The notes beneath the pieces are model-generated. The model was not told where the DNA came from and ran no database searches. It saw nothing but the letters and a program-made list of their open reading frames with translations. The position numbers and the translations under genes are program-made. Below are positions 15,055-51,641 of a stretch of DNA of 64,000 nt, one piece after another (positions within the stretch are counted from its first letter, which is position 1; every line of letters begins with the position of its first letter). This DNA comes from Coemansia sp. RSA 487 (taxonomy: Eukaryota; Kickxellomycota; Kickxellomycetes; Kickxellales; Kickxellaceae), in the NCBI GenBank assembly GCA_027577595.1, contig JANBRJ010000062.1, forward strand, positions 35,781 through 99,780, written 5' to 3'.

Positions 15055-16317
15055 TTAATGATGATTCGTGCAATTGGGCAACGTATCTGTCCTGCTCAGC
15101 GGTCTGCCCCAAACCTTTTCGTTGAACCAGTTAATAGCACGATGATTTCGCGGAAGCTGCATTGGCGCACCAAACGCAAGCATTTCTTCTTGTTCCTTTT
15201 CGCGTTGCATTCTCCTTCTGTGGAGTATGAACCGTACAAGGAGAGCAAATAATATGAGTCCTAAAATGGTAAGCATAACAATTACCCATGTAGGAATGCG
15301 TGTCCTTCCTTTCTCTGTATAAATGTAGTCTCCAATGCTCTCAAGACTAATGGTCTCGCTTGATATGCCTGTCCTTGATGAATTTGATATTGTTGTTGCC
15401 GTTGTCATTGGTGTTCCAATGAATTCTGTTGATACTACAGTCATAGTTGACATTGACGTGTCAGTTGTATAGACTGTGATAAAGTCATAGTCGGTAAGCG
15501 TTGCTGTTGACACAAAAGTGACAACTGACGCCGGCTCTGTAACAACACTCGTCACATATACAGTGTTTGTAGCTGCTGTCACGATTTCGGTAACAGTCAT
15601 AGCTTCGCCGCTTACAGTTTGTACAATTGTTTGTACTATTGTCTGTACAGGAGCTGCAGCACTGTTATTGATCGTTTCAGTCACCGTTGCAATATCACTA
15701 TTTCCACCAACAGTCAAGATAGACACATCGGTGACATAGACAATAACAGGCGATATAATGCTGTTTGTTGCACCAAATACTGTTGGTATAACCTCGGTTG
15801 CCGTTACAGTCACTACAGATATGTCAATAATTGTAGATGTGGCCAGCACAGTTGACGTAGTCAGTATTGTCGATGTCTGTAAAGTGACGTCGGTTGTATC
15901 GACTGTGGTTGTTTCTGGAATTGTTGTAGTCGCAGAATTAGTTGCAGTTATAGACGTAATATACATTGAACTAAAGATTTCAGTTGTATCGGATGTAGTA
16001 ATATCAGTGCTTGTAATGGTAACATAATTCGTCGTAGGATATTCAAGTGATGATCCTTCATTTACGCGTAAAATATATCCTGCTGTAGACTCTCGAAATA
16101 AATACTCTGGCGATGAGTATATAGAAATATCTGCAGGATTTTCCGATGAAAAACCAATACGCAAAGGCAAAAGATATTTAATTGAAGAGCCTTCGAGATT
16201 GGGATCAACAGCAAGGGGATTACGGGCATGCAAATCATGCTTGTGGTCGTTGTCATCCAGCGCACTAACCACAGCAATAAATACCAGAAAACAGGCAAGA
16301 AAAATTAGCAGTCGCAT
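15055..16317 (-). CDS. Stalk-only member of the pseudo-trypsin surface family
   Basis: 420 residues from ATG 16317 (MRLLIFLACFLVFIAVVSA signal peptide); the frame upstream starts only at TTG. After about 90 residues of unique sequence with an LAVDPN motif shared with its paralogues, it goes straight into the Thr/Ser/Val-rich stalk. The cysteine-containing trypsin-like domain of its neighbours is absent. The stalk end (TVYVTSVVTEPASVV, TDYDFITVYTTDTS), the transmembrane helix (WVIVMLTILGLILFALLVRFIL) and the tail (FGAPMQLPRNHRAINWFNEKVWGRPLS) are clearly homologous to the 19.9 and 22.2 kb genes. The C-terminal PPxY is lost (ends TLPNCTNHH). Could be a deletion derivative that still makes a protein, or a decoy. 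Confidence 0.8.
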   Translation of the reverse strand: MRLLIFLACFLVFIAVVSALDDNDHKHDLHARNPLAVDPNLEGSSIKYLLPLRIGFSSENPADISIYSSPEYLFRESTAGYILRVNEGSSLEYPTTNYVTITSTDITTSDTTEIFSSMYITSITATNSATTTIPETTTVDTTDVTLQTSTILTTSTVLATSTIIDISVVTVTATEVIPTVFGATNSIISPVIVYVTDVSILTVGGNSDIATVTETINNSAAAPVQTIVQTIVQTVSGEAMTVTEIVTAATNTVYVTSVVTEPASVVTFVSTATLTDYDFITVYTTDTSMSTMTVVSTEFIGTPMTTATTISNSSRTGISSETISLESIGDYIYTEKGRTRIPTWVIVMLTILGLILFALLVRFILHRRRMQREKEQEEMLAFGAPMQLPRNHRAINWFNEKVWGRPLSRTDTLPNCTNHH

Positions 16318-16864: not shown

Positions 16865-18865
16865 CTAACCCAAACGAGATGCATAGTCTGGGGGTGTTTT
16901 CTTTGATCCGACAGCCCGATCCCAAAGCTTTCCAAAGTACCAGTTGTCAACGCGGTGCTCTGTAGCGATTCGTGGTTGTGCTATATATGCTAACGCTTCC
17001 TGGCGCTCCTCTTCGCGCTTCTTCCTTTGCCTGTAAATACAGAACCAAACTATAGCAACCAAAATGGCAAGAGACAATATAACAATTGCGACTATCATCC
17101 ATGTTGAAATCCCGCTTCTATTGTTGTCTGAGTCATTAGCTGCTTCGCTCGAACTTTCAATTTCGCTGGACTCGTCAGTTGGATATGCGCTGGACGTTTG
17201 ACTAGATGCACTTTCAAGTGTTGTTGAAGAAGCTTGCGATACAATAGTTGTGGTGACAAGGGATTCTCTGGTTGTTGTAAGCGTATAAAAGTCGTAGTCA
17301 GTGAAGGTAACCGTAGTCACTAAGGACTCTACTGATGGAGCTAGCGTAACTGTTTCATTCACGGTAATGCTTACCGGAGCTTCCGTATAGGTAACAGTTT
17401 CTGTGACAGTCGTTGCACCCATGCTCTGGACTAAAGTACTTGCAGGCTCCGTCACAGTAGCTTGAACTGTTACAGTTTCAGTCTCAACACGACCATTGCC
17501 AACCGTAATTACAGAAACTTCATTGACTGTGATTATTATGGCCGTTTCAATGCTATTAACAGCGCCAACGACAGTTGGAATTATCTGCTGTGTGGTGACG
17601 GTGACGGATTTCAGCTCTACACTTGTCAATGTTTCAATTACCGTCGATGTTTCTTCCAAAGTCGACGTGGCCAACTGAATACTTGTACTGTCTATAGTAC
17701 TTGTTTCTGATATAACAGATGTCACTGATAGTGTTGTTGTTGTGGACACAATTTCGGTGGAGCTTATTATTTCTGTAGATGATTCAGTGACATGCTTGGT
17801 GCTAGTTACTTCTTCCGGCTCAGTATCACGTAGTGGAGGTAAAGCAGGCTCTGCAAAAACGTCTGACAAAACAGGATTCAAGGGTTCCGCTGAGCTTAGT
17901 TGCTGAGTAAGCGTATAGTTTCCAAGCACTAGTACACCCTTGACAGCGCCTGTTGCCGGCTTCATTTGATAGTTAACGTCGCTAGCTGCGGTATAGCCTT
18001 GGGCAAATACTTTGTTGTACACCAGTACATCCTGGCCAGAAGCCTGCTTTATCCACGGGATGTAGTTACGAAGGATAACATAGTAGTTGTATATCGGAGC
18101 ATTACCACAGTATCCGTCATCGCTATATATAGCACTGTGGCTAAAAATTGCTGCCAGAGCAGATGAGCCTGGATCTACAACGCCATACATTGAGCCATAC
18201 GGTGCAACACAGGCGCTGTCAACATACGAGGTAACTGTGAGCGTGCTACAAATAAAATCAGTCGGGTTCTGCGAGAAGATATCCGATGCTCTTGAGCATG
18301 CATCTGTGTCTGTTGAAACCTCACTCACTTTTACATCAGGTGGGTCGTTGTACGTAAATGGCTCTATGTTTGTCAAACTACGGTGGACAAAGTAGTATTG
18401 CGACCAATCTGCTGGCCAATCTGCAATCTGCTTTGTAAAGTCATCGACCTGTGGAGGATTAAGCTTGAGGACCGCCAAGTTGTTTGCAAATGTATCATGA
18501 TTGTACATTGGATGTGGAATAACATCTGCCACAGTATAAACTCCAAATGAATTACCACGCGAGTTCTCGGATACAATTACAGTATATTGCACACTAGGGT
18601 CTCTGCTGTTGCCAACATAATCGATACAACTGGCTGCAACAACCCCAGCGTTCTTGTTGATCATAGCAACCTCGCAGTATGTCTGAGCATTGTTTCTGTA
18701 AAATATCCCTGTCTGCGTTCCGCGTATCTGATTAACTGGATCCACAAGCATCATATCCCCTTGAAATTGTGGTTGGCGAACATTTAATGATGCTTGGAAT
18801 GTGGTAGCATTTACAAGTGATAGCAGCCCGGCTGCCACCACCATCTGCCAATGTAGATGTTTCAT
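16865..18865 (-). CDS. Membrane-anchored trypsin-like pseudoprotease, paralogue 1
   Basis: 666 residues from ATG 18865; signal peptide MKHLHWQMVVAAGLLSLVNA. Residues about 45-275 follow the chymotrypsin fold order: a cysteine pair C64...C80 as around the catalytic His loop, NNLAVLKL in place of the catalytic-Asp strand, a CVAPYGSMYGVV segment where CxGDSGGP should be, and IYNYYVILRNYIPWI matching the last beta strand and helix. The three catalytic positions are S79, N129 and Y223, so it should not cleave. Then a conserved GNYT, a Thr/Ser-rich stalk (about 360-575), a transmembrane helix (WMIVAIVILSLAILVAIVWFC) and a basic tail with HRVDNWYFGKLW and PPDY at 658-661. Type I surface protein; ligand unknown. 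Confidence 0.85.
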   Translation of the reverse strand: MKHLHWQMVVAAGLLSLVNATTFQASLNVRQPQFQGDMMLVDPVNQIRGTQTGIFYRNNAQTYCEVAMINKNAGVVAASCIDYVGNSRDPSVQYTVIVSENSRGNSFGVYTVADVIPHPMYNHDTFANNLAVLKLNPPQVDDFTKQIADWPADWSQYYFVHRSLTNIEPFTYNDPPDVKVSEVSTDTDACSRASDIFSQNPTDFICSTLTVTSYVDSACVAPYGSMYGVVDPGSSALAAIFSHSAIYSDDGYCGNAPIYNYYVILRNYIPWIKQASGQDVLVYNKVFAQGYTAASDVNYQMKPATGAVKGVLVLGNYTLTQQLSSAEPLNPVLSDVFAEPALPPLRDTEPEEVTSTKHVTESSTEIISSTEIVSTTTTLSVTSVISETSTIDSTSIQLATSTLEETSTVIETLTSVELKSVTVTTQQIIPTVVGAVNSIETAIIITVNEVSVITVGNGRVETETVTVQATVTEPASTLVQSMGATTVTETVTYTEAPVSITVNETVTLAPSVESLVTTVTFTDYDFYTLTTTRESLVTTTIVSQASSTTLESASSQTSSAYPTDESSEIESSSEAANDSDNNRSGISTWMIVAIVILSLAILVAIVWFCIYRQRKKREEERQEALAYIAQPRIATEHRVDNWYFGKLWDRAVGSKKTPPDYASRLG

Positions 18866-19926
18866 GCTGGTAATAAATAATATAAATGGTTAAGCTATAG
18901 TTATAATAGGCAATTGAATATTGTTTATTAAGGAAAGAAAGCGTATCACAACCAATATAGGAAAATTTCAGTAATATGTCAATTCTAGGATGTGATTGCT
19001 TGCATGAAATTGTATTCTCTCGTAGAAATTCGATGCTACTTTACAAGAAAGACAAGTGTAGCCCTTTGTAAAATAGCCTGACATATCACATGTGATGAAT
19101 AGGAGAATTTCTATTAAACTAAACCACAAAGAATGCAAAGATTATTAATTTCACTCTTTCGGATTAACATCAAATTACTGACGACGCTACGCAGAGAAAC
19201 CCAGCAATTTTACATGATAAACTAAAAGAATAACCAAGAAAAATTTGCCAATACGCATTAATAAAGTAGCTTATTCGCTAGTTGATGCTTTTTTTTAAAT
19301 AATTCTGTTCTATTTTGTAAGTTGTTTCTGCATTTGGATACAGCGAATGTGGCATTAGTAATGTGGAAATTTATTTTGCTCAAACAGCTTCCCTACAAGA
19401 ACGAATGCGCTTCCTAATAATTTTATCTATCAATGATGTTGCAATAAAGCACTTTTTCACAACTGTAAATTGCCTTTTCAGTTTTTTCTGTCTAGTTGAA
19501 GAATCTTCGTGTAAAGCAGTGTACAAAATATAATTGCTCCTATGTGTGAAAAGTGCAAATGTTTTTGTTCTTTTTTTACCTTTCACCTAAATAAAAATAA
19601 TTTGCACTGTTTTGCTTTGCACCTTTTTAAATTGTTGTTCAAAGACTAATTCGCAAAATAAAAACGGTCTCCTTAGTACATAGTAAAAAAGTCACTTTGT
19701 AATATAATGTAGAAAGTCGTGCCATGTGTACAGCCTACTTGTATAAGAACAATTTCCTTTGTGCAAGTCATACACATAGTATCTACGTTATCCTCCAAAC
19801 TCTACACAAGAGTGCTTATTCTTTTTTCTTTTCCATCTATGTAAATCCATTCCTGTAATGTATTATTGAACGGTTCTTCGCATTATTATTATTATTGCAC
19901 TGGCTAAACATATAGCATTGCCAATT
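18866..19926. promoter_or_regulatory. Divergent intergenic region between two pseudoprotease genes
   Basis: About 1.06 kb separating paralogue 1 (leftward) from paralogue 2 (rightward), so both promoters are here. Strongly AT-rich. No gene seen; a minus-strand frame at 19380-19586 is unconvincing. Confidence 0.5.
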
Positions 19927-21987
19927 ATGAAACTGTTTTCGATTTTTTCAGTGTCGACAGCGTATCTACTCACTGTCATTCAAGCACAGTCAAATGTAAC
20001 TCCCAGACTTATTGGAAGTGGACACTTGGACCATCACTCCTTTCATGCCCGTGCACCACTTGGAAACACATTTTCTGGTACCAATCTAATTATTGACCCC
20101 AATGGAGAATTGGCAAACCAAGTTACTGGAATATTGTACAAAAATGGCTTCCAGACATACTGCGAGGTGGCTGTGAGCAACCAAAACACAGGTATTATGG
20201 CTGCCAGTTGTCTTGACTATACCAATGGTAAAGTTGATGAGAGTGTTTCATATGGAGTTGCTGTATCGACAACTACTCCTTCACAGCCTGGACAAGTACT
20301 AACGGTTGGAACACCAATAATCCATCCATCGTACAATCCCAGTACATATGCCAACAACATTGCAGTTCTTCCACTATCAGCGACAAATCAGGTTGACATT
20401 GCAAAGAATATTGATGACTGGCCACATGGTTGGGCATATTATCTTCTAAATCATCGCAGCGTTAACAATAACTACTTGGATAGTATTACATTCCAACGAC
20501 CAATCTCCACAGCAGGCAAAGAAAGTGATCAGGATACTCAAGCATGTACCAGTGCATCAGCGATATTTAGTGACAATCAGTCAGATTTTGTCTGCAATTC
20601 GGCTACAATAGCTTCATATCTCAATGCCAACTGCTCTGCCCCTTATGGCTCTATATATGGTGTTACCGGTGAAAGGGGGCTTAATATTGGAGGAATATTC
20701 AGTCACAGTGCAATATATAGCGACCAAGGATATTGTGGCCAAGGTAAAATTTACAACTACTATCTTCTTTTCCGTAACTACATGCCATGGATTCAGAGTG
20801 TTGCAAAGGGCACTATTGGTACTTACCACTCACAAAGTGCAACTGGGTATACTGTGCCGAATAATGCAAGCTACACAATGAATGATTCTGGTGAAAATGT
20901 CACTGGTGTTGCTCTTGTTGGCAACTACACTACAGGCCAGGCACCTGCAGCAGCTGAAAGCCACGCTCAAAGTAGAGCTCAGTTGCCTGAAGGCTCATCG
21001 TCTGAAGAGCAATCACAGATTAATGACATTACCAGTGTAGAAGATACTACAGAAGCTACAACTGATATTGTCAGCTCGACATATATTGCATCTTCAACTG
21101 AAATTGACTCGACTACTGCAACTATTTCAGAAACAACAACAATTGACACAACAAAAATTGTTTCACAGACATCAATTGCACAGGCTACATCAACAGTGCT
21201 TGTTACATCAACATCTGTCCAAATTGAAATGACAACAGTCACAGATACAGAGGTGGTACCAACAGTGATTGGAGCAACAAACAGTATTATATCGGCTGTT
21301 ATTGTGTCTGTTACTGATGTATCCATATTGACAGTAGGTAGTGGCCAGGTTGCAACACAGACTGTCACTTCCACTGATACTGTTACAGTTTCGGCAGGCA
21401 ATGCTGGAGTGGTAACTGTAGGCGGTGAAACCATGACTGTTACTGAAACCGTGACAGCAGCTACAAACACTGTATATGTGACGAGTGTTGTTACAGAGTC
21501 GGCATCGGCTGTTACCTCAGTGTCAACAGCAACGTTTACCGACTATGACTTTATCACAGTCTATACAACTGACACGTCAGTGTCAACTGTGACTGTAGTA
21601 TCGACAGGATCCATTGGAACACCAACGTCAGTAACAAGCCCATCAAGCATACAGCCATCATCAGCTGCTAGCGAGCCCAGCAGTGCTGAAAGTAGTGGTA
21701 GTGATGCAGATTCCCAGAAAGACGATAAAGGTGTACCAATGTGGATGATTGCAATGATTGCAATTTTAGGAATTTTATTCCTGATTCTTCTTGTGTGGTT
21801 TATTCTCTACAGAAGAAGAAGGCAGCGTGAAAAGGAACAAGAGGATATGCTTGCATTTGGTGCGCCAAGACAACTTCCGCAGGAGCACCGTGTTATTAAC
21901 TGGTTCAATGACAAGATTTGGGGAAGGCCACTAAGCGGAAAAGGATTACCGCCTGATTATTCAAGCACGATCAACCAACACTTATGA
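19927..21987 (+). CDS. Membrane-anchored trypsin-like pseudoprotease, paralogue 2
   Basis: 686 residues from ATG 19927; three codons upstream begin with TTG and were left out. Signal peptide MKLFSIFSVSTAYLLTVIQA. The ectodomain (about 50-292) has C79...C95 with MAASC, YANNIAVLPL, C236-SAPYGSIYGV and IYNYYLLFRNYMPWI. Catalytic positions are S94, N144 and Y240. A Thr/Ser/Val stalk with ITV, VSV and TVT repeats follows (about 355-600), then a transmembrane helix (about 606-628) and a 58-residue tail containing FGAPRQLPQEHRVINWFNDKIWGRP and PPDY at 675-678. The last part of the stalk, the helix and the start of the tail are almost identical in DNA to paralogue 3 (492 bp), a sign of gene conversion. 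Confidence 0.85.
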   Translation: MKLFSIFSVSTAYLLTVIQAQSNVTPRLIGSGHLDHHSFHARAPLGNTFSGTNLIIDPNGELANQVTGILYKNGFQTYCEVAVSNQNTGIMAASCLDYTNGKVDESVSYGVAVSTTTPSQPGQVLTVGTPIIHPSYNPSTYANNIAVLPLSATNQVDIAKNIDDWPHGWAYYLLNHRSVNNNYLDSITFQRPISTAGKESDQDTQACTSASAIFSDNQSDFVCNSATIASYLNANCSAPYGSIYGVTGERGLNIGGIFSHSAIYSDQGYCGQGKIYNYYLLFRNYMPWIQSVAKGTIGTYHSQSATGYTVPNNASYTMNDSGENVTGVALVGNYTTGQAPAAAESHAQSRAQLPEGSSSEEQSQINDITSVEDTTEATTDIVSSTYIASSTEIDSTTATISETTTIDTTKIVSQTSIAQATSTVLVTSTSVQIEMTTVTDTEVVPTVIGATNSIISAVIVSVTDVSILTVGSGQVATQTVTSTDTVTVSAGNAGVVTVGGETMTVTETVTAATNTVYVTSVVTESASAVTSVSTATFTDYDFITVYTTDTSVSTVTVVSTGSIGTPTSVTSPSSIQPSSAASEPSSAESSGSDADSQKDDKGVPMWMIAMIAILGILFLILLVWFILYRRRRQREKEQEDMLAFGAPRQLPQEHRVINWFNDKIWGRPLSGKGLPPDYSSTINQHL
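21350..21841. repeat. Inverted near-identical tract, left arm
   Basis: 492 bp encoding stalk end, transmembrane helix and start of the tail of paralogue 2. It matches 22296-22787 in reverse complement with one mismatch found by eye; identity stops sharply at both ends. Homology outside is much lower. Confidence 0.9.
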
Positions 21988-22158
21988 TTACGTTTACTTT
22001 ACTAACTTTTTCATTTTCATTTTCATTTTATTGCGTATAAAGCGCTGGTTTCGCAATCTACAAATAATTAGTGAATTGAATAAAGCCCGGCAATTCTCAT
22101 CATGTTACCTTCTTAGGAAGTATGCTGTATTAGTAAATGAAACTATATAAAATAAATC

Positions 22159-24225
22159 CTAGTAACCCTGTGTCATATACTCTGGCGGTGGTTCTACCCT
22201 GCTTGGTGGCCTGCCCCAAACCTTCTCGTTCAACCAGTTAATAACACGATACTTCCGCGGAAGCTGCATTGGCGCACCAAAGGAAATCATCTCTGCTTGT
22301 TCCTTTTCACGCTGCCTTCTTCTTCTGTAGAGAATAAACCACACAAGAAGAATCAGGAATAAAATTCCTAAAATTGCAATCATTGCAATCATCCACATTG
22401 GTACACCTTTATCGTCTTTCTGGGAATCTGCATCACTACCACTACTTTCAGCACTGCTGGGCTCGCTAGCAGCTGATGATGGCTGTATGCTTGATGGGCT
22501 TGTTACTGACGTTGGTGTTCCAATGGATCCTGTCGATACTACAGTCACAGTTGACACTGACGTGTCAGTTGTATAGACTGTGATAAAGTCATAGTCGGTA
22601 AACGTTGCTGTTGACACTGAGGTAACAGCCGATGCCGACTCTGTAACAACACTCGTCACATATACAGTGTTTGTAGCTGCTGTCACGGTTTCAGTAACAG
22701 TCATGGTTTCACCGCCTACAGTTACTACTCCAGCATTGCCTGCCGAAACTGTAACAGTATCAGTGGAAGTGACAGTCTGTGTTGCAATATCGCCGTTTCC
22801 AACTGTCAAGATAGACACATCAGTAACATAAACAATAACAGGTGATATAATGCTGTTTGTAGCCCCAATCGCTGTTGGTACTACCTCGGTTGCTGTCAGA
22901 GTCATAACAGATAGCTCCACAGTCGTACTTGTTATCAAAATAGTTGATGTAGTTTCAACTACTGATGTCTGTGAAATAATATCTGTGGTTTCCAAGGTTG
23001 TGGTCTTTGAAATAGTTGCAGTAGTCGAGTCAATTTCAGTTGAAGATGCAATATATGTCGAGCTGACAATATCAGTTGTAACATCTGTAGTAATTTCAGT
23101 GATAATAACCTTTTCACTTGCCTCTGACATAAGAACACCACTATCTGCTGAAATACGGCTTTGTACAGGCTCTAATTTAACTGCTGGTACAATAGCATTA
23201 GTCGTATAATTTCCAACCACAGCCACCCCAGTTTTTTCTGCTGCCGGGGTTTTCATCACATAGCTTGCATCATTTGCAGCTGTATATGAAGACGAGCTAT
23301 CAATATGGTAAGTGGAAATATCGGTTTGTGCAATACTATGGATCCATGGAATGTAATTACGAAGAATAAGGTAGTAGTTGTAAATTGGTCCCTTTCCACA
23401 ATAGCCATCTGTTCCATATATAGCACTGTGGCTGAATAATGCCCCAAGCTCAGCAGGATTGGGGTTTGCTACACCATAAACCGAGCCATATGGCGCGACA
23501 CAGTTTGAATTAATATATGACTGGACTGTAAGCATGCTGCAAACATAGTCACCCGTATTTGCTTTATATATTGCAGAAGCATCGGTGCATCCACTGTTAT
23601 CACCACCGACATCAACAGCGCTAACCTGGGGATTATTGAATACAAAGGGCATGACATTTGTCAGGCTTCGGTGCACAAAATAGTACTGTGTCCACTCATC
23701 TGGCCAGTCGGCTATTTGCTTTGTAAATTCAAAGCCCGCCACTGCTGTAAACTGCATAACAGCAATATTATTTGCATATGTTTCCGGATCATAGTTGGGA
23801 TGGGGTGTCACTTTGGTGGCTTTATATACCCCGCCCGTAGCACTACTAGTAGTTCCAACAGATACAGCGACAGTATACGAGACATTTGGATCAACTTCAT
23901 TATTTACATAGTCAAAGCAGCTAGCTGCAGCTATACCGATAGTCTGGCTACTCATCATTACTTCGCAGTATGTTTGGTCATCACCCTTGTAGAGGATAGC
24001 AGTCTTGGCTACCGTGATTTCATCAACTGGAGTACCAGTCTTACCAATCCCACCACTAGTGACAGGCGCTTGGCGGGTAATTAGTGGTCTTGTCGAGTTG
24101 TTTGGTGGTCGAGCTTGACCGCTACCCACAAGCCTGACATTCATGCTAGAGGCGGCAGATGTACCAGCAGCCGCTGCCGCTGCTTGACCAACAAGAAAAG
24201 CTAGTGAAAGTTTAAAAAGTCGCAT
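22159..24225 (-). CDS. Membrane-anchored trypsin-like pseudoprotease, paralogue 3
   Basis: 688 residues from ATG 24225 (MRLFKLSLAFLVGQAAAAAAG signal peptide). The frame runs 65 codons further upstream, but that part is leader. Ectodomain about 70-300: C87...C103 with AAASC, YANNIAVMQF, C242-VAPYGSVYGV, IYNYYLILRNYIPWI. Catalytic positions are S102, N153 and Y246. Stalk, helix and juxtamembrane RRRRQREKEQ are shared almost exactly with paralogue 2. The tail reads FGAPMQLPRKYRVINWLNEKVWGRP and ends with PPEY at 680-683. Convergent with paralogue 2; stop codons are 172 bp apart. Confidence 0.85.
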   Translation of the reverse strand: MRLFKLSLAFLVGQAAAAAAGTSAASSMNVRLVGSGQARPPNNSTRPLITRQAPVTSGGIGKTGTPVDEITVAKTAILYKGDDQTYCEVMMSSQTIGIAAASCFDYVNNEVDPNVSYTVAVSVGTTSSATGGVYKATKVTPHPNYDPETYANNIAVMQFTAVAGFEFTKQIADWPDEWTQYYFVHRSLTNVMPFVFNNPQVSAVDVGGDNSGCTDASAIYKANTGDYVCSMLTVQSYINSNCVAPYGSVYGVANPNPAELGALFSHSAIYGTDGYCGKGPIYNYYLILRNYIPWIHSIAQTDISTYHIDSSSSYTAANDASYVMKTPAAEKTGVAVVGNYTTNAIVPAVKLEPVQSRISADSGVLMSEASEKVIITEITTDVTTDIVSSTYIASSTEIDSTTATISKTTTLETTDIISQTSVVETTSTILITSTTVELSVMTLTATEVVPTAIGATNSIISPVIVYVTDVSILTVGNGDIATQTVTSTDTVTVSAGNAGVVTVGGETMTVTETVTAATNTVYVTSVVTESASAVTSVSTATFTDYDFITVYTTDTSVSTVTVVSTGSIGTPTSVTSPSSIQPSSAASEPSSAESSGSDADSQKDDKGVPMWMIAMIAILGILFLILLVWFILYRRRRQREKEQAEMISFGAPMQLPRKYRVINWLNEKVWGRPPSRVEPPPEYMTQGY
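22296..22787. repeat. Inverted near-identical tract, right arm
   Basis: Reverse-complement partner of 21350-21841, inside the paralogue 3 coding region. The arms are separated by 454 bp, so a large cruciform or hairpin could form, and inversion or conversion between the two genes is easy to imagine. Confidence 0.9.
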
Positions 24226-25454
24226 CTTTATATAAATATATAAAATAAGCACAAAAACGTATGAAAAGTTAAAGAAAAAAGAGGGAAAATATGAACTTTG
24301 GGTTAGTTGGTTATATTTTACTATAAAACATGAACTGGCACACGAGGAAGTGGGTAATTTTTCCTTTATTTTGCTTTGCTTTTGAAGAAAAGTGGTCCTC
24401 TTTGACAAAAAGACCAACAAATTGAGCTTTCATACAAAGAACAATGAGCTAGCCCGGTGATCTTGCGCTTGCCAGTTTACTGAACGTTGATTAAATTAGC
24501 TTGACTTGTTAATTACACAAGTATAGCAAATGAGGTTTCGAAACCAGTCAAGAAACATTGCGAAGAACAAAGTCCTGCTTGATAGTTCTTTTTAACGAAG
24601 TTCTACATTCCAAGACTGCAAGCCAGAAATGTGTGTTTTTTTGATTCAACAAGTATGGTGCAATGATAGGAAATTTCTATTTAGTGGATTTAGAAAATAT
24701 AAAAAACAATAATTTCTATAGCAGCCGTTGGGTAATGGCTAGTAATTATGGACGCTAGGATACCCAAAGAAACCTAGAAAGTGAGACATCCCTCCTATGC
24801 CAATAACAAACAATTGAACTTTTTGCTGCTTCTGGCAACTAATATGTACTTGGCACATCGAATTTAGTGCATGAGAACAACATATCACCGAACCAACTAT
24901 AAAAGTTGCAGCTACTAATGTTTTCAATTGCTTTATTCGACACGGGCTGAAGCTATCAAAAGTGCTGGCATAATCCACAAAAAGTGCAAACCCTGTCACC
25001 TGCTTAAAGCAAGGAAGCAAAAGATAGAAAGGCTGGCCATGTGTTACGTTGTGATAAAGGAGTATTTAAACCCCAGCAATGCAAAGGTTTATTTAATGCA
25101 AGAGATAGTTGGCGAAAAAGAAAAAACTCATTTGATTCTTTACGCCTAGTGAAAATTTTACATGCGTCTGTAGCTGTAAAGCAAAATACAACGATAAAAG
25201 TGTGGATGTCGGCTTTCTTTTCTCTTTTTGCTTTCTACAAAACATTTTCTTGTTTTTTTTGTTCATATGGTCATGTAAATGAAAAATAAAGAAAATTTCG
25301 ACATGTTGAATGATGGTATACTTGTTCGTTATTACATATCTCTGGAGGATTGTTATTCTCGTACTGTTTTATCTCTGGTATTTTTCTAATACAAAAACAC
25401 CACCACCAACTGCTTACTATTATGATACTTTGTATCTAATTGTATTTAAAGATT
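24226..25454. promoter_or_regulatory. Divergent intergenic region, 1.2 kb, no gene seen
   Basis: Lies between paralogue 3 (leftward) and paralogue 4 (rightward). It has a TATA-rich leader next to 24225. Frames at 24739-25020 (minus) and 24928-25149 (plus) show no family resemblance and fall in AT-rich sequence. Confidence 0.5.
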
Positions 25455-27194
25455 ATGTATTTAAAGTATTCACTACTATTTGCTGGTTTATACGTGGGTT
25501 CGCATTATACACAGGTGGATGGCCATTTGTTTGACCATGACAAGGTGCTAACCCCACAACGGCCTCAACAGATGCAAAGGCGGGATGGTGCATCTTTCAA
25601 TGCATTTGCAGCAGCAGTCCACGACGGAATTTTGATGAACAACGGCGAGCAGACATTTTGCGGGGTCGTCCCGTTTGACCAAGAGCATGTGTTTGTTGCA
25701 GCCAGTTGCTTTGATGTCGGCTCCAGTGAACAAGATATTATATCCGACTATCAGGTCATGCTATCAGGTCCCGGGTACGAGACACCTGCAGCAATTGGCA
25801 TCGTAGGAGCAGTGCTAAACGACAACTACAATAATGTAACATTCGCCAACAATATTGCAATCCTGACACTCGACAACGCCGATGGCCAGAAGTTCCAGAA
25901 CAAAATAGGCGACTGGCCAGCAGAATGGCCATATTATTATTTCGTTCAGCACAGCCTTACAGAAGTATTGGACAAGTGGAACAGTATTGGGACTGCTGGC
26001 GCCAGCCCAACCGTAGACTTTGCGCCATGCACAGGAGCGTCTACTTTGTTTAGCGAAAACATGGGGGCACTTATCTGTAGCTCCTTGTCGCGCAAGTCGT
26101 TTATTCACTTGGAATGCAATACACCGTACAAGTACGTTGTTGGATCCAGTAATACAGACAGTGCGATTATTTCGTTGTACAGTTACAGCACAATTCCCAG
26201 CACAGCTGTCAACGGGTTTTGTAGTAACGATGGTGGGATCCAAAACTATTACACGAATTTGTTCAACTATATTCCGTGGGCGGAAAATGTCACGCAATCG
26301 ACAATCCAGCGGTTCCATACGGTTACTACTGGATACGAGAAGACTAGCGACGCAGGATATTCGATGGCCATACCTGGTTCCGATGCTGGGAACGATGGCT
26401 CCCAGATATACGGGTTTTATGGAATCGACCAGAGCATTCTTGGGTCAAACACTGTGAACGGCGCGGGGTCCAACAATCATGGCCCACCGAGAGATGTTAA
26501 CGAGAAGAGCGATAATACTCAGTGCAGCAGTGTAAGCACTGTGACAGAGACGGAGTATCAAACCACGACTGTCATCGATAGCAGCCAAGATTGTCCTGTA
26601 GGCAGTGGCCAAGGGACGCTTATTGGTGACTCGCTGTATGTGACAGCAACAACGGATCCGCTTGGCAACATCGAAACTTACACGTTTGTTCGAGAATCGA
26701 CATCGGGCAATGTGTCTGCAGAAAACGGCACTGCTGCAGGCGATTCACCAGCCAAAACAGTGTATGTGACGGTCACAGAGTCACCGGTCACTGTTACCGT
26801 AGGAGCAGACGGTGCTAGCACGGCAAACACTAACCCTGATTCCTCACACTCGGCGTCCGACAGCTTTTCCAGCGCAAAGGGCACAGCTACCGAGACCAAT
26901 ACAAAGAGCACTGATACTGAATCGCCATCTACTTCGGACGCAGCCAGTGAGTCAGATGAGGGTAAAAGCACTGGCGCCCTTCCGCAAGGAGCAATCATTG
27001 GTATCATTGCTGCTGTAGTATGTGTTATTTTGGCAGGCCTCGGATACTACGCTTACAGAAAACGCAAGAAGCAGAAGGCGGAACAGGAGCTGGAGCAAGC
27101 AAACATTGGACCTGCTCCAGGGGTGCAGCAGACGTACCGCACGCGTTACAATTTCACAAGCTACAGCGGTGGGCCAATGGTTTCCCCCTTTTAA
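25455..27194 (+). CDS. Membrane-anchored trypsin-like pseudoprotease, paralogue 4 (divergent)
   Basis: 579 residues from ATG 25455; five codons upstream begin with TTG. Signal peptide MYLKYSLLFAGLYVGSHYTQVDG. The ectodomain keeps C69...C85 with VAASC, FANNIAILTL and a last-strand region YYTNLFNYIPWAENV. The active-site serine segment is ECNTPYKYVVGSS, again with Tyr at the serine position. The stalk is shorter and differs from the others, with TVTETEYQTTTV, a CPVGSG segment and KTVYVTVTESPVTVTVGADG, then Ser/Thr/Asp-rich spacer. Transmembrane helix IIGIIAAVVCVILAGLGYYAY followed by RKRKKQK. The tail ends SGGPMVSPF and has no PPxY. More GC-rich codons than paralogues 1-3. Confidence 0.82.
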   Translation: MYLKYSLLFAGLYVGSHYTQVDGHLFDHDKVLTPQRPQQMQRRDGASFNAFAAAVHDGILMNNGEQTFCGVVPFDQEHVFVAASCFDVGSSEQDIISDYQVMLSGPGYETPAAIGIVGAVLNDNYNNVTFANNIAILTLDNADGQKFQNKIGDWPAEWPYYYFVQHSLTEVLDKWNSIGTAGASPTVDFAPCTGASTLFSENMGALICSSLSRKSFIHLECNTPYKYVVGSSNTDSAIISLYSYSTIPSTAVNGFCSNDGGIQNYYTNLFNYIPWAENVTQSTIQRFHTVTTGYEKTSDAGYSMAIPGSDAGNDGSQIYGFYGIDQSILGSNTVNGAGSNNHGPPRDVNEKSDNTQCSSVSTVTETEYQTTTVIDSSQDCPVGSGQGTLIGDSLYVTATTDPLGNIETYTFVRESTSGNVSAENGTAAGDSPAKTVYVTVTESPVTVTVGADGASTANTNPDSSHSASDSFSSAKGTATETNTKSTDTESPSTSDAASESDEGKSTGALPQGAIIGIIAAVVCVILAGLGYYAYRKRKKQKAEQELEQANIGPAPGVQQTYRTRYNFTSYSGGPMVSPF

Positions 27195-28713
27195 TTCAGG
27201 GTAAGCAAATGCTTTTCCCGCGTGTAATAGTATATCAAGTGTTCGAGCCCGCAACACAAAGGCCAGAGCAAACAATCTGGCAGCATCTACACAGAAAACC
27301 CACACAAACACCACAACTTTAGTTGTTGAAAAGCGCGATAAAGAAAGCAACATCTGCAGAACACAGCTATTGAGCTAGCATCCGGTGGTAGATAGCGTGC
27401 TGGCTAGAAAAACTGGTGTGATTCCATATGAGCGATAGTGCAGCGGTGAGCCAATACTTATTCTGTTTAACCTTTAAATACTAGCCCACTCTCTCTAGTT
27501 TCTTTTATTTTATATAACAAAAGACAACAACCCATACTTGCTGTTTCTACAAACGTTACAAGCTTATCATATCTTTGCCATGCCACAGGCAAAATAAATA
27601 AATATATTGAAAGTAAAAAATATTGGCTTACTACTGTATTGGACAGAAAAAAAACATATATTGATCACAAGCTATATTTTTATGAGCTATTGATTTTATT
27701 TTCGATTTCTCCAAATGCAAGCAAACAACGACCTTTTTTAACCATTTATGTAATTTCAAGTTTTCATTAGTTATTTTCCATTGGTGTTTTCTAGTTATTG
27801 TACTTTGGGACATTGGGCAAGAGCTGTACATCCACGTCCATATAAAACATGCATTTGCTTATTGAACCACATACAACTTACGTTTAGCTAATGCTTGGCT
27901 TTAATCTTTATTTTTCGTGCTAGCTTATTCCACATAGCATATTTTTATATTTGTTTTTATTGCAAACTCGCTTTTGGCGCAGTTTAACTGGTTTTATTGC
28001 AATTTGACAAACCCGTGGCACTAATGAAGGAAAGAAAAAGTAAAGGCATGAGTACAACGGGATCACATTTGCATAAAGAAAAAGATGCTAAAAGGCGGCT
28101 CCCTTATCGTCCGTGCTGTGCGCGAGAGCCATCAATAAAGATATAAAGGTTAAAAGCTACACTGCTCGCTTTTCTTTAATCATGAAAAGTTGTAAAGACA
28201 AGACAAAACATGGGGTTTCATTTAAATGTCTAATAGACCGTTTAGCTTTACGTACACACACAACACCTTGTCTTTATTTTTTTTTTTGCTTAAAGGCAAA
28301 AAGGAAAAATTACCCTTTCTGCCTTTTATTTTTTCCTACAATAAGCTTTTTAGTTTTGGTCCATTTCTTTTTCTTAATGAGAAATTGGTCTTTATGTCAA
28401 CGTAAACCTGCCTTTTAGACATAAAGGAAGCAAGACTTTTTATCCTTACATGTCAGCTTTCTCAACGTAAAGCATGCTTTTCTTTGTCAATAGACAGAAT
28501 TTACGTGTGGTCTTGGTCGGGAAATAAATGTTTAAAGAGAAATCCTACCCCATCTTCTGCTCCTTTTATCCTCATTTCAATAATTTTTGCATTTATTACT
28601 GTAACACTATAGGCTATATTATTTATTTTGCATCATCATTTATAATACCAAGTAGCTTTTAAAGGGAGTAGACAAAACACAGGTAAACAGAGTTTTATAA
28701 CAAAAATAGAACA
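27195..28713. other. Intergenic, 1.5 kb, no gene; begins with a dispersed repeat
   Basis: Just after the stop codon lies a repeat copy (27200-27297, described separately). The rest is AT-rich. I see no supported gene on either strand. Confidence 0.5.
27200..27297 (-). repeat. Dispersed repeat, copy 1
   Basis: On the minus strand this reads CTGTGTAGATGCTGCCAGAT... then TGTGTTGCGGGCTCGAAC and ...ACGCGGGAAAAGCATTTGCT. Matching pieces in the same order and orientation occur at 46286-46360 and 46501-46535. The GGGCTCGAAC core resembles a Pol III B box, but no tRNA fold is possible. Confidence 0.6.
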
Positions 28714-30183
28714 ATGTTTATTGGTAGAACCGTACTAGTATTGGCAGCTGGACTGTCAGCAGTGCTGGCATCGCCTATTGCCAAAGAACAAGAGGTGACA
28801 ACCCAGTTTTTCCGCCGCAACAGTACCAGTGACTTGGATGCATTCAAGGGAGCGCTTCTGCTGAAGAACGGCAAGCAAACATCGTGCGAGGTGGCGCTTA
28901 TGGATGGCACCTATGGATTTGTCGCAGCCAACTGTTTGGACTATTCCAGTAGCAGTAGCAGCGGTAAGGGTAGCAGCAGCGAAAGTAGCAGCGCCATTGG
29001 CAATGCTGATAGTACTGGCTACGACACTGGGAGTAGCAGCAGCGGTGTTCCATTGCAGATGAACCAAACAACCCAGTACACGGTGATGGTTTCTGACGGA
29101 TTTGTCAATTCTTTTGCCACGCTCCGTGTCAGTAAGGTGACACCCAACCCGCAATACGATCCGGTTTCGTTTGCCAACAACGTGGCGCTGGTCGAGTTCG
29201 ACAGCAGCTCCTCGGAGTTTGTCAACTACATTGCGTCATGGAGACCCGAGTGGACCAGCACGTACTATGTGCGCAGGACACTCAACCCGGCAACAAATGG
29301 GAGCTGGAGCCAGCCGGTGATGTCGGCGTACGGCGCCAACTCCGACGACACGGGATGCGCCGCCGCCAACCCGCTGTACTCGCTCAACACACAGGACCTT
29401 ATGTGCAACACAATGGTAACGACCAACATCTTCAACAACACATGCTCGATCCCCTACGGTTCCGTTTATGGAGTCGTTGGCACCAACACCGCCATTGCTG
29501 CGCTGTACAGCCACAGCGCTGTGGGCATTGACTCTGCCAAGCCGGGTCCGTTCTGCCACGGCTACACCACGTACAACTACTACATTGTGCTGCAGCACTA
29601 CGTGCACTGGGCCATGAGCATCATGGGTCGGAAGGCGCCTGTGTTCCATTCGCACTTGGCCGAGTACAGCGAGGTTCTGGATCCCAACTACTCAATGATC
29701 ATTCCCAGCCCCAAGAACGTCAAGGGATACACTGTCTACGGAGGCGACCTGTACAATCTGAAGGACCCTGCGGCTTCCGAGGAGGCGCACAAGAAGCTTT
29801 CGGGTGGCGCCATTGCTGGAATTGTGCTTGCGCTTCTTGCTCTCTTGGGTCTTCTTGCGGCATACTTCATCAGAAGGAGGATGAAGAAGGCTGAAAGCAA
29901 CAGAGTGCGCAGATGGTGGTTCTTTGGCCGCTTTGTCAACGAGGACGAGGCAAACGAGCACAGGCCGCCCAGGGAGTTCATGGACGAAATGGAGTATGCG
30001 CCCCACCACGGAAATGAAGACCTGATGGACCACAGCACCGTGCTTGAGCCAAACAGCCCACGCAACGCTGACAATACTCCCGCGCACCCACTGAAGCTCA
30101 AGTCGGAGGAAGCTGAGGAGGACAGGGAGAACAACGGAAGGTCCAACAAGAGCAACCCGCCTTCGTACGCCATTGAGTTCTAA
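28714..30183 (+). CDS. Membrane-anchored trypsin-like pseudoprotease, paralogue 5 (no stalk)
   Basis: 489 residues from ATG 28714; signal peptide MFIGRTVLVLAAGLSAVLAS. The ectodomain has C58...C74 with VAANC (Asn at the His position), a Ser/Gly-rich insert at about 78-115, FANNVALVEF (Asn at the Asp position), TCSIPYGSVYGVV (Tyr at the Ser position) and TYNYYIVLQHYVHWA. It lacks the Thr-rich stalk: the domain is followed almost at once by the helix GGAIAGIVLALLALLGLLAAYFI. The cytoplasmic tail is long (about 110 residues), acidic in part, and ends with PPSY at 482-485. Codons are GC-rich, so it may be the oldest or most constrained member. Confidence 0.83.
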   Translation: MFIGRTVLVLAAGLSAVLASPIAKEQEVTTQFFRRNSTSDLDAFKGALLLKNGKQTSCEVALMDGTYGFVAANCLDYSSSSSSGKGSSSESSSAIGNADSTGYDTGSSSSGVPLQMNQTTQYTVMVSDGFVNSFATLRVSKVTPNPQYDPVSFANNVALVEFDSSSSEFVNYIASWRPEWTSTYYVRRTLNPATNGSWSQPVMSAYGANSDDTGCAAANPLYSLNTQDLMCNTMVTTNIFNNTCSIPYGSVYGVVGTNTAIAALYSHSAVGIDSAKPGPFCHGYTTYNYYIVLQHYVHWAMSIMGRKAPVFHSHLAEYSEVLDPNYSMIIPSPKNVKGYTVYGGDLYNLKDPAASEEAHKKLSGGAIAGIVLALLALLGLLAAYFIRRRMKKAESNRVRRWWFFGRFVNEDEANEHRPPREFMDEMEYAPHHGNEDLMDHSTVLEPNSPRNADNTPAHPLKLKSEEAEEDRENNGRSNKSNPPSYAIEF

Positions 30184-30478: not shown

Positions 30479-32107
30479 CTAGTTGCACATGGCGTTCATC
30501 AGGATCTGGTTCTCGATATTGATGACTTCTGAGCGCGCATGATTGGCCGGGCAAAAGTTGACCTCCGCATCGCGTGCCTTGTATGGTCTGCGCTCTGTCA
30601 ACGAAGCAACATCCCAGACGCTTATTTTCCGCGTGTCGCCCAGCTGTTCTCTAAACTGCTGCACAATGTAGTGGTCGTAATGGCGGTTGCGCAGCCGCGA
30701 GTATCGCCGCTTCCAGAATGCATCCATATCTGATGCACAGCAGTAGTACTGACCTGTGCGGATAATGATATCCATTGACACCGGATAGCTTGTGCGCACC
30801 TTCTGCACCAGTCTATGCACTTCGTTGGCAAAGAATGCGCGGGAAGAGAAAGCAGTGTCCCAGTTGATGACGCCAAAGATGGCAGTTGTCGGAGACTGGA
30901 GAGCATTGCCGACTCCATCTGGGCGGTCGAATGGGTCAGACCACGGAGGCCGATTGCGGTCCGTCAGTCCGTCCCACTTGAATGCAACAATTCGCGACTT
31001 GTTACCAGGTACTTGGTGTCCCAGGTACTCATTGTCCATCGCTGCAGCAACGCCGCCTGAAACAGGGTCCATATCGATGGGCATGACCCGGGCATTGCTG
31101 TTGTACCGGTCATTCGGCTCTGAGTTATCGTTACATATGCACACATGCGACGCAATGTCTTTCGGTGTGGAGCACCACTGGCCAAGCGACGTTATTTTCT
31201 TTAGCGCCCGCCTGGTGTTGGAGTCCCCGAACCAGTGGATCACTGGATACCTGTCAACCAGGCACTGTGCATACTCAGGGTAGCTTACCGTGCGCATCCG
31301 GCAGTCGTATGGCATCCATACACGGTTCTGGTTGTCTGGTGGCAACAGCATGTTTGTGATGTTGAATGGAATGTCGGCAACAGCCACCCAGCGACCCTCA
31401 GCGTCTGCGCTAGTGCACAGAGGCAGATCCATGTATTCTGCCAGGCTGTTCTTACCATTGGTGACTTGGATACGGAGGTCCTCTGGTATCGCAAGTCGCT
31501 CCGGAGTGAATGGCTGCGGATCCAGGCCAGGGCCGTCAGGGTTCCACCGTGCATCTCTGAACTCAATGTATCCCTCGGGACGGTACACATCAGAGTCTCT
31601 CAGCATCACATCAGCCTCGTATACGTGGGCTCCCGTTCTTCCGTTGTCCCTTGGCTCCTTCAGAGCCACGGGGATGCTTATCCCCGTTGCGTTTCCAACC
31701 AAGTCTAGCAGCACGCTGTCCCAGGGTGCGCCAGGTAGCGGCGTAAAGCTCACTGAAGTATTAGACTGCTTGGAAGGCACCACGACGCGCACACACACAG
31801 TGCCGCCCACTACAATGGCACGAGTGTCGGGGATATCCACAAATGCTGCGATTTCTGAAGCCTTTAGGCTCCAATACCCAGGAGGGATTGGGATATCGCT
31901 GCACTTTACTCCCTCGGTTGTGTGCACTGATAGCACAGAACCGTTGGGTGGTAGTAACAATCCCCGAAGACAAACAACAGTCACAATAGCTAGAAAAATT
32001 GCCACATATATGGTGAGCTTCCGCGAACGACGCAGCAGATAGTGGAAGGAGTGGAAGAATTTGTCAGCGACTGACATATCTGCCTTCAATTCCTCACGCT
32101 CTTCCAT
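30479..32107 (-). CDS. NXPE-like SGNH/PC-esterase-type II membrane protein, copy A
   Basis: 542 residues from ATG 32107; six codons upstream start with TTG. Type II topology: a basic cytoplasmic start, then a signal anchor (LTIYVAIFLAIVTVVCLRGLL, about 35-55). The lumenal part begins with an Ig-like region (VCVRVVVPSKQ ... HVYEADVMLRDSDVYRPEGYIEF) and continues with an SGNH/PC-esterase-like region: HWFGDSNTRRALKK (about residue 290) carries the GDS nucleophile motif, and the end is NFCPANHARSEVINIENQ. The usual DxxH block is not clean here, so catalysis is uncertain. Family relatives (NXPE, PMR5/TBL) act in the Golgi on glycans, mostly by O-acetylation. Ten to twelve cysteines suggest disulfides. 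Confidence 0.75.
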   Translation of the reverse strand: MEEREELKADMSVADKFFHSFHYLLRRSRKLTIYVAIFLAIVTVVCLRGLLLPPNGSVLSVHTTEGVKCSDIPIPPGYWSLKASEIAAFVDIPDTRAIVVGGTVCVRVVVPSKQSNTSVSFTPLPGAPWDSVLLDLVGNATGISIPVALKEPRDNGRTGAHVYEADVMLRDSDVYRPEGYIEFRDARWNPDGPGLDPQPFTPERLAIPEDLRIQVTNGKNSLAEYMDLPLCTSADAEGRWVAVADIPFNITNMLLPPDNQNRVWMPYDCRMRTVSYPEYAQCLVDRYPVIHWFGDSNTRRALKKITSLGQWCSTPKDIASHVCICNDNSEPNDRYNSNARVMPIDMDPVSGGVAAAMDNEYLGHQVPGNKSRIVAFKWDGLTDRNRPPWSDPFDRPDGVGNALQSPTTAIFGVINWDTAFSSRAFFANEVHRLVQKVRTSYPVSMDIIIRTGQYYCCASDMDAFWKRRYSRLRNRHYDHYIVQQFREQLGDTRKISVWDVASLTERRPYKARDAEVNFCPANHARSEVINIENQILMNAMCN

Positions 32108-34085
32108 ATTATCAACAAAATACAATTAAGATAAATAGTTTAATTATGCCTATAGCCAGAGAAAAGAATTAAGCACAGACGACAGAACTGTAGTTGTCTT
32201 CCCTTTTTGAAATAATATTTTTTCGACAACGGCTGTCTATTATCGTTTGAGCTTTATTTACACTCTAATACCGGCATTCCAGCCCGCGCTTATACTTTAA
32301 AAAACCTGTGTCGCAAATCCATGATTTTTGCGCAAAAAGGCCAAAGCAGCTTTTTCTGGGTTGGTTACACACGGGTGCAAATTCGAATCAATGTCACGCA
32401 TGAAATAGGGGATTTGAGAAGAGCTGTCTTTCATTATTTGGTCTTTCTGACTCAAACTGGTTTATTAGAAATCACGAATGATAGCTATTATCGCCACCAC
32501 TGGTCCAGTTTGCTCGTTCACATTCAAGATTTGCGACAAAAAATTTACAGGCTCTGAAAACACAGAAATAAGCACACCTTTACTCATGCAGGAGTGAAAA
32601 TCCAAGTTACACTATGCATGGAATGAGGAAGAATTGGGGACATTCGAAGTTTCCATTATTTTAGTTTTGGTGATTTTTGATTTGTTCTCGGCTGAAAAAT
32701 TTCAAAATAGAAAACATATTTCACGTGTGGTTTTGGTAATCCACTAATTTTCTCGCCTGCCCAATTGCGCCATCAGCTGTGCCTGTAGTAACTAGTGTGG
32801 CTCACACCAATTGCTCGTTTACTTGGTTACTTGTAGTTCAGGCGTGGTGAAAACGATGCTTGTTCGTTTGTGCTTCTGTAGATTTATTCATGGCCCCCAT
32901 ATATAGCAAAAGGTTAGTGTTTTTCCAATTGGCGTTAATAATATTACTTGACATTACAAAAGAAACATTGCCACCACTGAGCATGCTATTTATTTAGTAA
33001 CTTGTATTAAACGCAAACGACAAGAACAACTAGAGTGCAACAATAAAATAGATGTTCTCGTGAAAGCAACGTCAATACTTTTTTCAAAAGCAATAAAGAT
33101 TGAATAGTGGCTATAAATCGTATATCGTGCAGTGTAGCGTTCTCTAAAGATGGTATTTGAACAACTTTCATACTCGGTAGAATGTATCCGCTTGTCTGCT
33201 ATTTGATGTGTAATATGTTTTAAGCAGGTAATAAACTAACGCTACCAATGTTACTTCAGCTTTATAGTAGATGCAGCATTATTTAATTTAACATTGCAAT
33301 ATTGTGTTGATTGTTGTTGATTGCCGATTGGGCAGACCTGATATTTTTTATTGCGCTATTGTATCAGGCACAGCTGTGCTATATACTATTGATAGCATGT
33401 GGTTCTTCTGATATAAAGATTGAGTAGCAATACATATAGCAAGTGTCAAACTCTACCACAATCTTATTTAAATAATAGCACAGACAAAAATCGTCCGTTA
33501 TTGCACCATTTGCGCAATTTCTCACTAAGAGTAATAACTTTGGAGCCCATGGTTCTTGGATTTATTTTGGTTGTCATAGCATTAGCTGATATCCCTTGGT
33601 AATCCTTCTACTGAACATGTGCATATTCCTGGTTGTGCACCAATATCTGTTGCAAATGTCGTCGACGATTTTGCAATGTCACGATTAATGTTGAAATGCT
33701 GTGCGTGATGGCTGCTCTTGGGTCATCCATGCTGAACACTCAGATGTTGGGCATTTACGCACATTTTTACAGAGAATACTTGCGGATATCATGCTTGCTG
33801 TGACACGGGTTAAGTGATCTAATCTGCATCTCGGTGGATAATGGCACACGTAGCTCGTGGAAATATAGAATTAGCTCCACTGTTAGCCGAGTACGTTTTG
33901 ACCTTGAGTCATACGCATATATACACGTTCATTTTTTGATGGTTTTACGGATATAAATACACTGGGTTTAATTGCAAAAAGCGCACGAACTTTAGCTCTT
34001 TATACTCGTCGTATTATAAATTAAGTTTTAGACCATACATTACTCAGGTCACCTTCTAAAAACACTTCTAAACTGTAAATCTATT
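32108..34085. other. Intergenic, 2 kb, no gene seen
   Basis: AT-rich spacer between two near-identical copies. The flanks of the copies are not alike apart from about 20 bp beside the stop codons, so this spacer was not duplicated with the genes. A plus-strand frame at 33420-33602 is not supported. Confidence 0.5.
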
Positions 34086-51154: not shown

Positions 51155-51641
51155 ACTGTTTTGTTTTCGTTTCGTTTCGTTTCTTTGGTTGTTGCTACGT
51201 TATATGTGAATACTATTCTTTTTTATCTCAGCTACAACAGATACTAATTATCTCTCCCCTTCCTTTTTTGTATGGTGTTTAGTTTGGAGAAAGCAAGCAA
51301 ATGCTATTATCCACAAAACAATGCTAAATTAAAACGCGACCATTGTTAAGCAGAAACACGCGTTGCATTGATCTGATCCGGGGTTTACATATAAATTACA
51401 GCAATTGGGTGTTGACTGGGAGGAGGGAATTGAAGATACACATTTGTGTTTCCGAATTACGCTACAACAAGCATTTGTCTTCTCTTGCACTTCTCTCTTT
51501 CACTCCCCTCCCCAAAAAAGGCTCTTTCATTTTGTATTTTTCCACAACGTTTGGTTTTCTTTTTCTTTTTTTTTTTCTTTCTCCAAGCTTATTAACCTAT
51601 TTTTTCGTTTGGTGCTTTATGAACATTTACTATCCACTCCT
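51155..51641. other. Intergenic and leader, no gene seen
   Basis: 487 bp with a pyrimidine-rich leader (51475-51640) ahead of the next gene. The open frame that runs through it is hydrophobic leader, not protein. Confidence 0.5.

Follow-up and report, generated by a model that had tools for sequence, protein, structure and literature searches.

A cluster of trypsin-like membrane protein genes

The stretch of DNA analysed here, 64,000 nucleotides of Coemansia sp. RSA 487 (contig JANBRJ010000062.1, positions 35,781 to 99,780; hereafter the window), carries five related genes that are predicted to encode single-pass membrane proteins with a catalytically inactive trypsin-like (S1) head and, in four of them, a tail with a putative docking motif for a ubiquitin ligase. 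An earlier reading of the letters and their translations (the sequence-only reading) had described the five as membrane-anchored pseudoproteases. All five open reading frames are complete and lie where it had placed them: gene 1 (P0005, 666 amino acids; 16865..18865, minus strand), gene 2 (P0001, 686 amino acids; 19927..21987, plus strand), gene 3 (P0002, 688 amino acids; 22159..24225, minus strand), gene 4 (P0003, 579 amino acids; 25455..27194, plus strand) and gene 5 (P0004, 489 amino acids; 28714..30183, plus strand), with an ATG start in genes 2, 3 and 4. They share an order of parts, with leaders and transmembrane (TM) helices assigned by hydropathy alone: after a hydrophobic leader comes a domain of approximately 240 residues, then a stalk whose length varies between genes, a single hydrophobic helix and, at the end, a basic tail. 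The leader, single helix and basic tail that had been claimed for all five were found in each. The stalk is rich in serine and threonine (S/T) in four genes, gene 1 among them, and is short, with 12% S/T, in gene 5. The S1-fold domain of gene 1 spans 18029..18736 (minus strand; residues 44–279) and corresponds to residues 20–255 of its structural model, which match most of the listed S1 structures.

The active-site motifs quoted in the sequence-only reading are exact: AASC in four genes and AANC in one, ANN[LIV]A in all five, and CxxPYGSxYGV in four, with CNTPYKYVVG in the divergent gene 4. Omitted from it were the loss of Asp194 and of IVGG, and the [PL]PxY (PY) motif of the tail. This motif reads PPDY in gene 1 (16883..16894, minus strand; residues 658–661) and gene 2 (21949..21960, plus strand), PPEY in gene 3 (22177..22188, minus strand) and PPSY in gene 5 (30157..30168, plus strand), and is missing from the tail of gene 4. 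Two further elements of the locus had also escaped it. A headless paralogue (P0006, 420 amino acids; 15055..16317, minus strand) has a leader, stalk, TM helix and tail without a trypsin domain; by eye, its tail ends in LPNC at the place of its relatives' PPxY. The 3′ halves of genes 2 and 3 form an inverted repeat of 720 nucleotides, the left arm of which (21241..21960, plus strand) is 93% complementary to the right arm (22177..22896, minus strand).

The heads have a predicted chymotrypsin fold

The Pfam Trypsin profile (PF00089) scored gene 1 at 29.1 bits against a cut-off of 20.6 but found no match in genes 2–5 at E values up to 10. The profile check proposed by the sequence-only reading therefore held for gene 1, and the homology of the other four rests on the family profile and structure prediction. 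PF00089 was above its cut-off at 8 of the 33 places that the family occupies in this genome, and reached an E value of 0.01 or better in 6 of the 42 rows of alignment A4. A profile of the five domains scored 47.0 bits, across its positions 5–297, against an intact trypsin encoded in the same genome; this match is cited in bits as its E value refers to a small set. Searching PDB sequences with gene 1 alone returned weak S1 matches (best E value, 0.088), and with the A2 profile S1 chains were found at an E value of 2e-5.

Structures were predicted for gene 1 (AlphaFold2 model m7148b9c3f103) and gene 5. Together with Foldseek, they bore out the two-barrel chymotrypsin fold that had been proposed; the unrelated fold named as the counter-case was not found. 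Among the structural matches, 1fon tied for first place with gene 1 as query and ranked second with gene 5. This is truncated zymogen E, subunit III of bovine procarboxypeptidase A-S6, which appears in the entry's title as a truncated zymogen; it is a pancreatic, secreted protein that is not known to have a membrane anchor. Protein Z (3h5c) was also among the matches. Across the non-redundant family rows, all six positions of the canonical disulphides (42–58, 168–182 and 191–220) are Cys in every filled cell or in 80 of 81, and in total six columns are at least 90% Cys. The family shares with S1A peptidases (PF00089) the fold, the three canonical disulphides, Ser214 in most members and a detectable profile similarity, but it differs in lacking His57, Asp102, Ser195 and IVGG, in having Asp194 replaced and in being mostly TM-anchored with a PY tail.

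The active site is rewritten across the family

We aligned 111 family rows, 31 from this genome and 80 retrieved (two of which, P0061 and P0072, belong to the same assembly), and anchored them with nine same-genome trypsins, taken from the 17 used in the tree described below, in all of which His57, Asp102, Asp194 and Ser195 are present. Gaps set aside, position 57 is His in 0 of 107 filled cells (Ser 57, Asn 31, Ala 10, Asp 7 and Pro 2), position 102 is Asp in 0 of 108 (Asn 102, Pro 6) and position 195 is Ser in 0 of 108 (Tyr 84, Phe 19, Leu 4 and His 1). The loss of the triad claimed for the window genes hence extends to all three residues in every filled cell, and relatives with an intact triad, the other counter-case, are absent among the aligned members. 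Position 194, Asp in active trypsins, is Pro in 107 of 108 filled cells; Gly193 of the oxyanion hole is kept in 0 of 108, replaced mostly by Ile, Val, Ala, Met or Leu; Asp189 is retained in 3 of 108; and Ser214 is mostly retained. In the loosely aligned N-terminal part, Gly19 occurs in 0 of 111 rows and position 16 is a gap in 102 of 111. The losses of Asp194 and IVGG go together, suggesting that the zymogen switch is gone.

Conservation was ranked over 354 scored columns in 81 rows of less than 70% identity (median pairwise identity, 27.5%). Columns 194, 101, 102, 214, 216, 195 and 215 rank 5, 11, 15, 19, 24, 27 and 33, respectively. Because these columns rank high and the six Cys are retained, most of the site appears not to have eroded but to have been rewritten and fixed. 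Conservation of the replacement motif, first proposed from the five window copies, is found in four named genera at this level of divergence. Following S1 enzymology, the family head should not act as a serine protease; the catalytic machinery was apparently replaced once, in the family ancestor, and then retained. Annotation as a peptidase was rejected because all catalytic columns are lost. Also rejected was a family-wide His-based site, as no scored column is at least 90% His; a subset of members may have such a site. Among the 81 non-redundant rows, 61 have His and 18 have Tyr at position 215.

A multicopy family in Kickxellales

The 17.8 Mb assembly contains 37 matches to gene 1, gene 1 counted. 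Four of these were set aside (two that cover only the stalk, the headless copy and a canonical trypsin on C37), and the other 33 places are distributed as follows: 12 on contig C42, 8 on C36, 5 on C62 (the window), 3 on C111, 2 on C79 and one each on C14, C23 and C121, so that 30 of the 33 lie on five contigs. The cluster of the sequence-only reading is real, but its genome-wide extent had been missed. Two places are defective: one C42 copy is interrupted by two stops, and one C111 place is a stop-containing fragment. The remaining 31, with long open frames, form this genome's set for the alignment, tree and tail counts. In an IQ-TREE tree, rooted at its midpoint and with non-family S1 proteins from this genome alone, the 31 members and six relatives were split by a 100/100 branch from the 17 other S1 proteins.

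All homologues named in three protein searches come from Coemansia, Dipsacomyces, Martensiomyces and Kickxella, all of them Kickxellales (the order was checked via one species per genus). No named relative outside Kickxellales appeared in these searches, two of which scored 7,997 and 7,993 candidates, so this range is a minimum. Close relatives of gene 5 occur in many Coemansia species. In two species, family members have locus tags close to each other (LPJ59_000196 and _000198; GGI25_003526 and _003531), which suggests that part of the cluster is old. Searches of open-licence literature listed no paper that describes the family in its title or abstract and none that pairs Coemansia with pseudoprotease; the passages found in two papers on early-diverging fungi do not mention these proteins.

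Two gene models, P0008 and P0009 (Coemansia spp. RSA 1804 and RSA 1285), contain two heads each (twice AASC, ANNIA and PYGS) and are either true double-headed members or annotation fusions. At L047 (G000:C111:14500-24000) in the present genome, a fragment accompanies two relatives that group with gene 4 in one clade (100/99) and in which no TM helix was detected; the two are possibly secreted forms, or their helix lies in an exon that was not found.

Purifying selection and probable shuffling of parts

The ratio of nonsynonymous to synonymous substitution (dN/dS) was estimated for ectodomains by the Nei-Gojobori method. Among 35 paralogue pairs, 16 were usable (dS < 1.5) and 19 were too diverged at silent sites; dN/dS was 0.10–0.29 in all 16 usable pairs. 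A pseudogene reading was rejected on these low values. That the genes are decaying, functionless relics of trypsins is scarcely credible: the headless copy and the two stop-bearing places would fit such decay, but it is already contradicted by purifying selection, and 31 long open frames, the six Cys kept and replacement residues conserved across genera also speak against it.

Two C36 genes are 98% identical in the ectodomain but 39% in the tail, and genes 2 and 3 are identical at 100% of TM, 78% of stalk and 47% of ectodomain residues. The latter pattern fits the inverted repeat. Partial gene conversion probably accounts for these contrasts. From such patterns we infer that heads have been recombined against stalks and tails by tandem duplication and partial gene conversion. 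Heads and stalks that look shuffled, and the crowding of places on five contigs, would suit a diversifying recognition family (self/non-self, predator or microbe) whose variants arise through clustering and gene conversion. We nevertheless regard this as very unlikely, as whole-ectodomain dN/dS is well below 1 in all usable pairs and gene 5 has close relatives across Coemansia.

Most tails carry a PY motif

An S/T-rich stretch (24–44%) precedes the helix in 28 of 31 members, and a TM helix was detected in 29. The [PL]PxY motif is present in 22 of the 31 tails (per-tail shuffles: mean 1.3, maximum 6 in 2000), that is, in 22 of the 29 TM-bearing members and four of the five window genes, and in 45 of 67 retrieved TM-bearing proteins (shuffle mean 2.2, maximum 7 in 1000) or 43 of 65 without P0061 and P0072; because paralogues are not independent, these shuffle figures overstate significance. 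It occurs once in 12,212 residues before the helix versus 22 times in 2,146 residues after it. As its middle letter varies (D, E, S, T, L, V, I, P or R) and the tails differ widely between clades, it appears to be the PY motif itself that is retained.

Motifs of the [PL]PxY type are ligands of the WW domains in Nedd4-family ligases, as PMC5578492, PMC11399591 and PMC2171029 describe. Contig C51 encodes, on one strand, three WW domains (96479-97009) and a HECT domain (95049-95951) in the order expected of Rsp5.

A probable surface receptor or cargo adaptor

We consider it probable that this single-pass Kickxellales family, with its dead S1 head and usual PY tail, serves as a surface receptor or cargo adaptor. 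The outer head would be an inactivated chymotrypsin-fold (S1) domain whose catalytic residues were replaced in the ancestor and then kept (His57 by Ser, Asn, Ala or Asp; Asp102 by Asn; Asp194 by Pro; Ser195 by Tyr or Phe; Gly193 and IVGG lost). By sequence and hydropathy, most members carry the head on an S/T-rich stalk, which varies in length, followed by one TM helix. Placed at the cell surface, the head would bind an extracellular or membrane partner as ligand, and the short, presumably cytosolic tail would recruit a Rsp5/Nedd4-type ligase through [PL]PxY, thereby coupling the receptor or adaptor to ubiquitin-dependent control of endocytosis or signalling. Only tentatively do we extend this to a lineage-specific class of surface receptors or transmembrane ligase adaptors that recognise their partners through a dead trypsin fold which can no longer be activated. 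They would make up a combinatorial repertoire in which about 30 heads are joined to tails that recruit Rsp5, and may take the part played in Dikarya by the Wsc/Mid2 sensors or arrestin-type adaptors.

The yeast membrane protein Sna3p is not known to have a pseudoprotease head. Its PPXY motif binds the WW domains of Rsp5p and directs it to the endosomal pathway, according to passages of PMC2171029. By analogy, the nearest working counterparts would be the PY transmembrane adaptors Rcr1/2, Comm, PRRG and CYYR. Passages of PMC5578492 and PMC11399591 present Rcr1/Rcr2 (yeast), Comm (Drosophila) and vertebrate PRRG, CYYR and Shisa proteins as single-pass with [PL]PxY-type tails, Comm, PRRG4, CYYR1 and Rcr1 as binders of Nedd4-family ligases, and PRRG proteins as bearing an extracellular Gla domain. 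The outer domains of these adaptors are Gla, Cys-rich or minimal, unlike the S1 head here. Membership of RCR (PF12273) was rejected (gene 3, 10.1 bits against a cut-off of 27.8); a genome search for RCR gave three weak matches, none at a family place, and the CYYR1 profile scored gene 5 below its cut-off (17 bits versus 31).

Wsc and Mid2 wall sensors consist of a head unrelated to the S1 fold, an S/T-rich stalk, a TM helix and a short tail, and a PY motif is not known to be one of their defining features. The main rival to a receptor or cargo adaptor, in our view rather unlikely, is a wall-stress sensor or adhesin of this kind, in which the head would bind a wall polymer or a neighbouring surface, the S/T stalk would be a glycosylated spring and the PY motif would merely control sensor turnover. 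The order of head, S/T stretch, TM helix and short basic tail matches such sensors, and the only Mid2-profile match (E value 0.08; 16.2 bits, cut-off 23.2) falls within a family member on C42. A genome search for WSC found none, but control genomes gave none either, so absence is not established. Against this, gene 5 has its short, S/T-poor stalk, and WSC and Mid2 profiles are unmatched in the five window genes; with the C42 match below cut-off, membership of either family was rejected.

Clip-domain serine protease homologues and protein Z are secreted animal proteins that retain much of the triad and activation site. Like the Kickxellales family, they put a catalytically dead S1 fold to non-catalytic use; unlike them, the family is fungal and has also lost the activation machinery. 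If its members acted similarly to the insect clip-domain homologues, they would be decoys or cofactors of proteolysis, surface pseudoproteases that bind inhibitors or regulate the fungus's own trypsins. We think this improbable. In its favour, PF00089 matches the genome in 30 rows that do not belong to the family (parts of a single gene account for some), a C14 trypsin match lies approximately 1.2 kb from a family match, and protein Z, a pseudoprotease cofactor, is among the structural matches. Yet with Asp194, Gly193 and IVGG lost and Asp189 nearly so, the inhibitor-binding pocket should be malformed and would bind canonical inhibitors poorly, which weakens the decoy reading, and the PY tails would be left without a role.

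Several points weigh against a surface receptor or cargo adaptor. Foldseek TM-scores were moderate, at 0.40–0.50 on the query and up to 0.66 on the target, with root-mean-square deviations of at least 5.0 Å among the listed rows. Position 57 is moderately conserved (rank 74 of 354), and the shuffle figures are inflated as noted above. The PY motif is missing from 7 of the 29 TM-bearing members (gene 4, L048, L045, L040_2659, L042_7373, L040_506 and L049, the last with a tail of 10 residues), and two C111 members have no detectable TM helix; some members lacking motif or helix may therefore be secreted. Tails with PPxY may also be widespread in single-pass proteins of fungi. Finally, the candidate Rsp5 on C51 was assigned from its WW and HECT domains, and a full Rsp5 would be expected to have a C2 domain as well.

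Other S1 proteins and neighbouring genes

Two of the 17 non-family S1 proteins have also lost catalytic residues. L023 (G000:C73:19626-20348) has SAYC and GDWGG, a TM helix and a 149-residue tail with no PY motif listed; L037 (G000:C130:25366-26070) has PASC and DNIA, has lost the serine of DSGG, keeps IVGG and has a hydrophobic end. Inactivation therefore seems to have occurred more than once in this genome. Six S1 genes that keep the whole triad (L010, L011, L016, L017, L021 and L051) end in a hydrophobic stretch with no tail; these ends look like glycosylphosphatidylinositol-anchor signals, and the proteins are possibly surface-tethered trypsins.

Adjoining the cluster in the window is a tandem duplication, 30479-32125 and 34086-35717 (both minus strand), the two copies being 94.1% identical over 543 residues, with an apparent N-terminal membrane anchor and no Pfam match. 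A long open reading frame at 12021-13664 (plus strand) has a weak match below cut-off (FNIP repeat) as its sole Pfam match; by eye, it and the frames at 43712-45607, 51405-53576 and 57356-59353 resemble F-box/leucine-rich-repeat proteins. An Rfam search of the window found no RNA family, and an NCBIfam search gave below-cut-off matches only.

Implications

Dead S1 proteases are known chiefly as secreted cofactors in animals. Here, a rewritten S1 site without the activation switch is common to at least four genera of one fungal order, and one genome has 33 copies, mostly membrane-anchored heads with ubiquitin-ligase docking tails. This suggests that the family is a class of surface receptors or cargo adaptors not characterised before, which would be an independent case of protease-to-receptor conversion. 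It would show that some Coemansia entries named 'Peptidase S1 domain-containing' are not peptidases, and would offer a first handle on surface sensing in the little-studied Kickxellales fungi.

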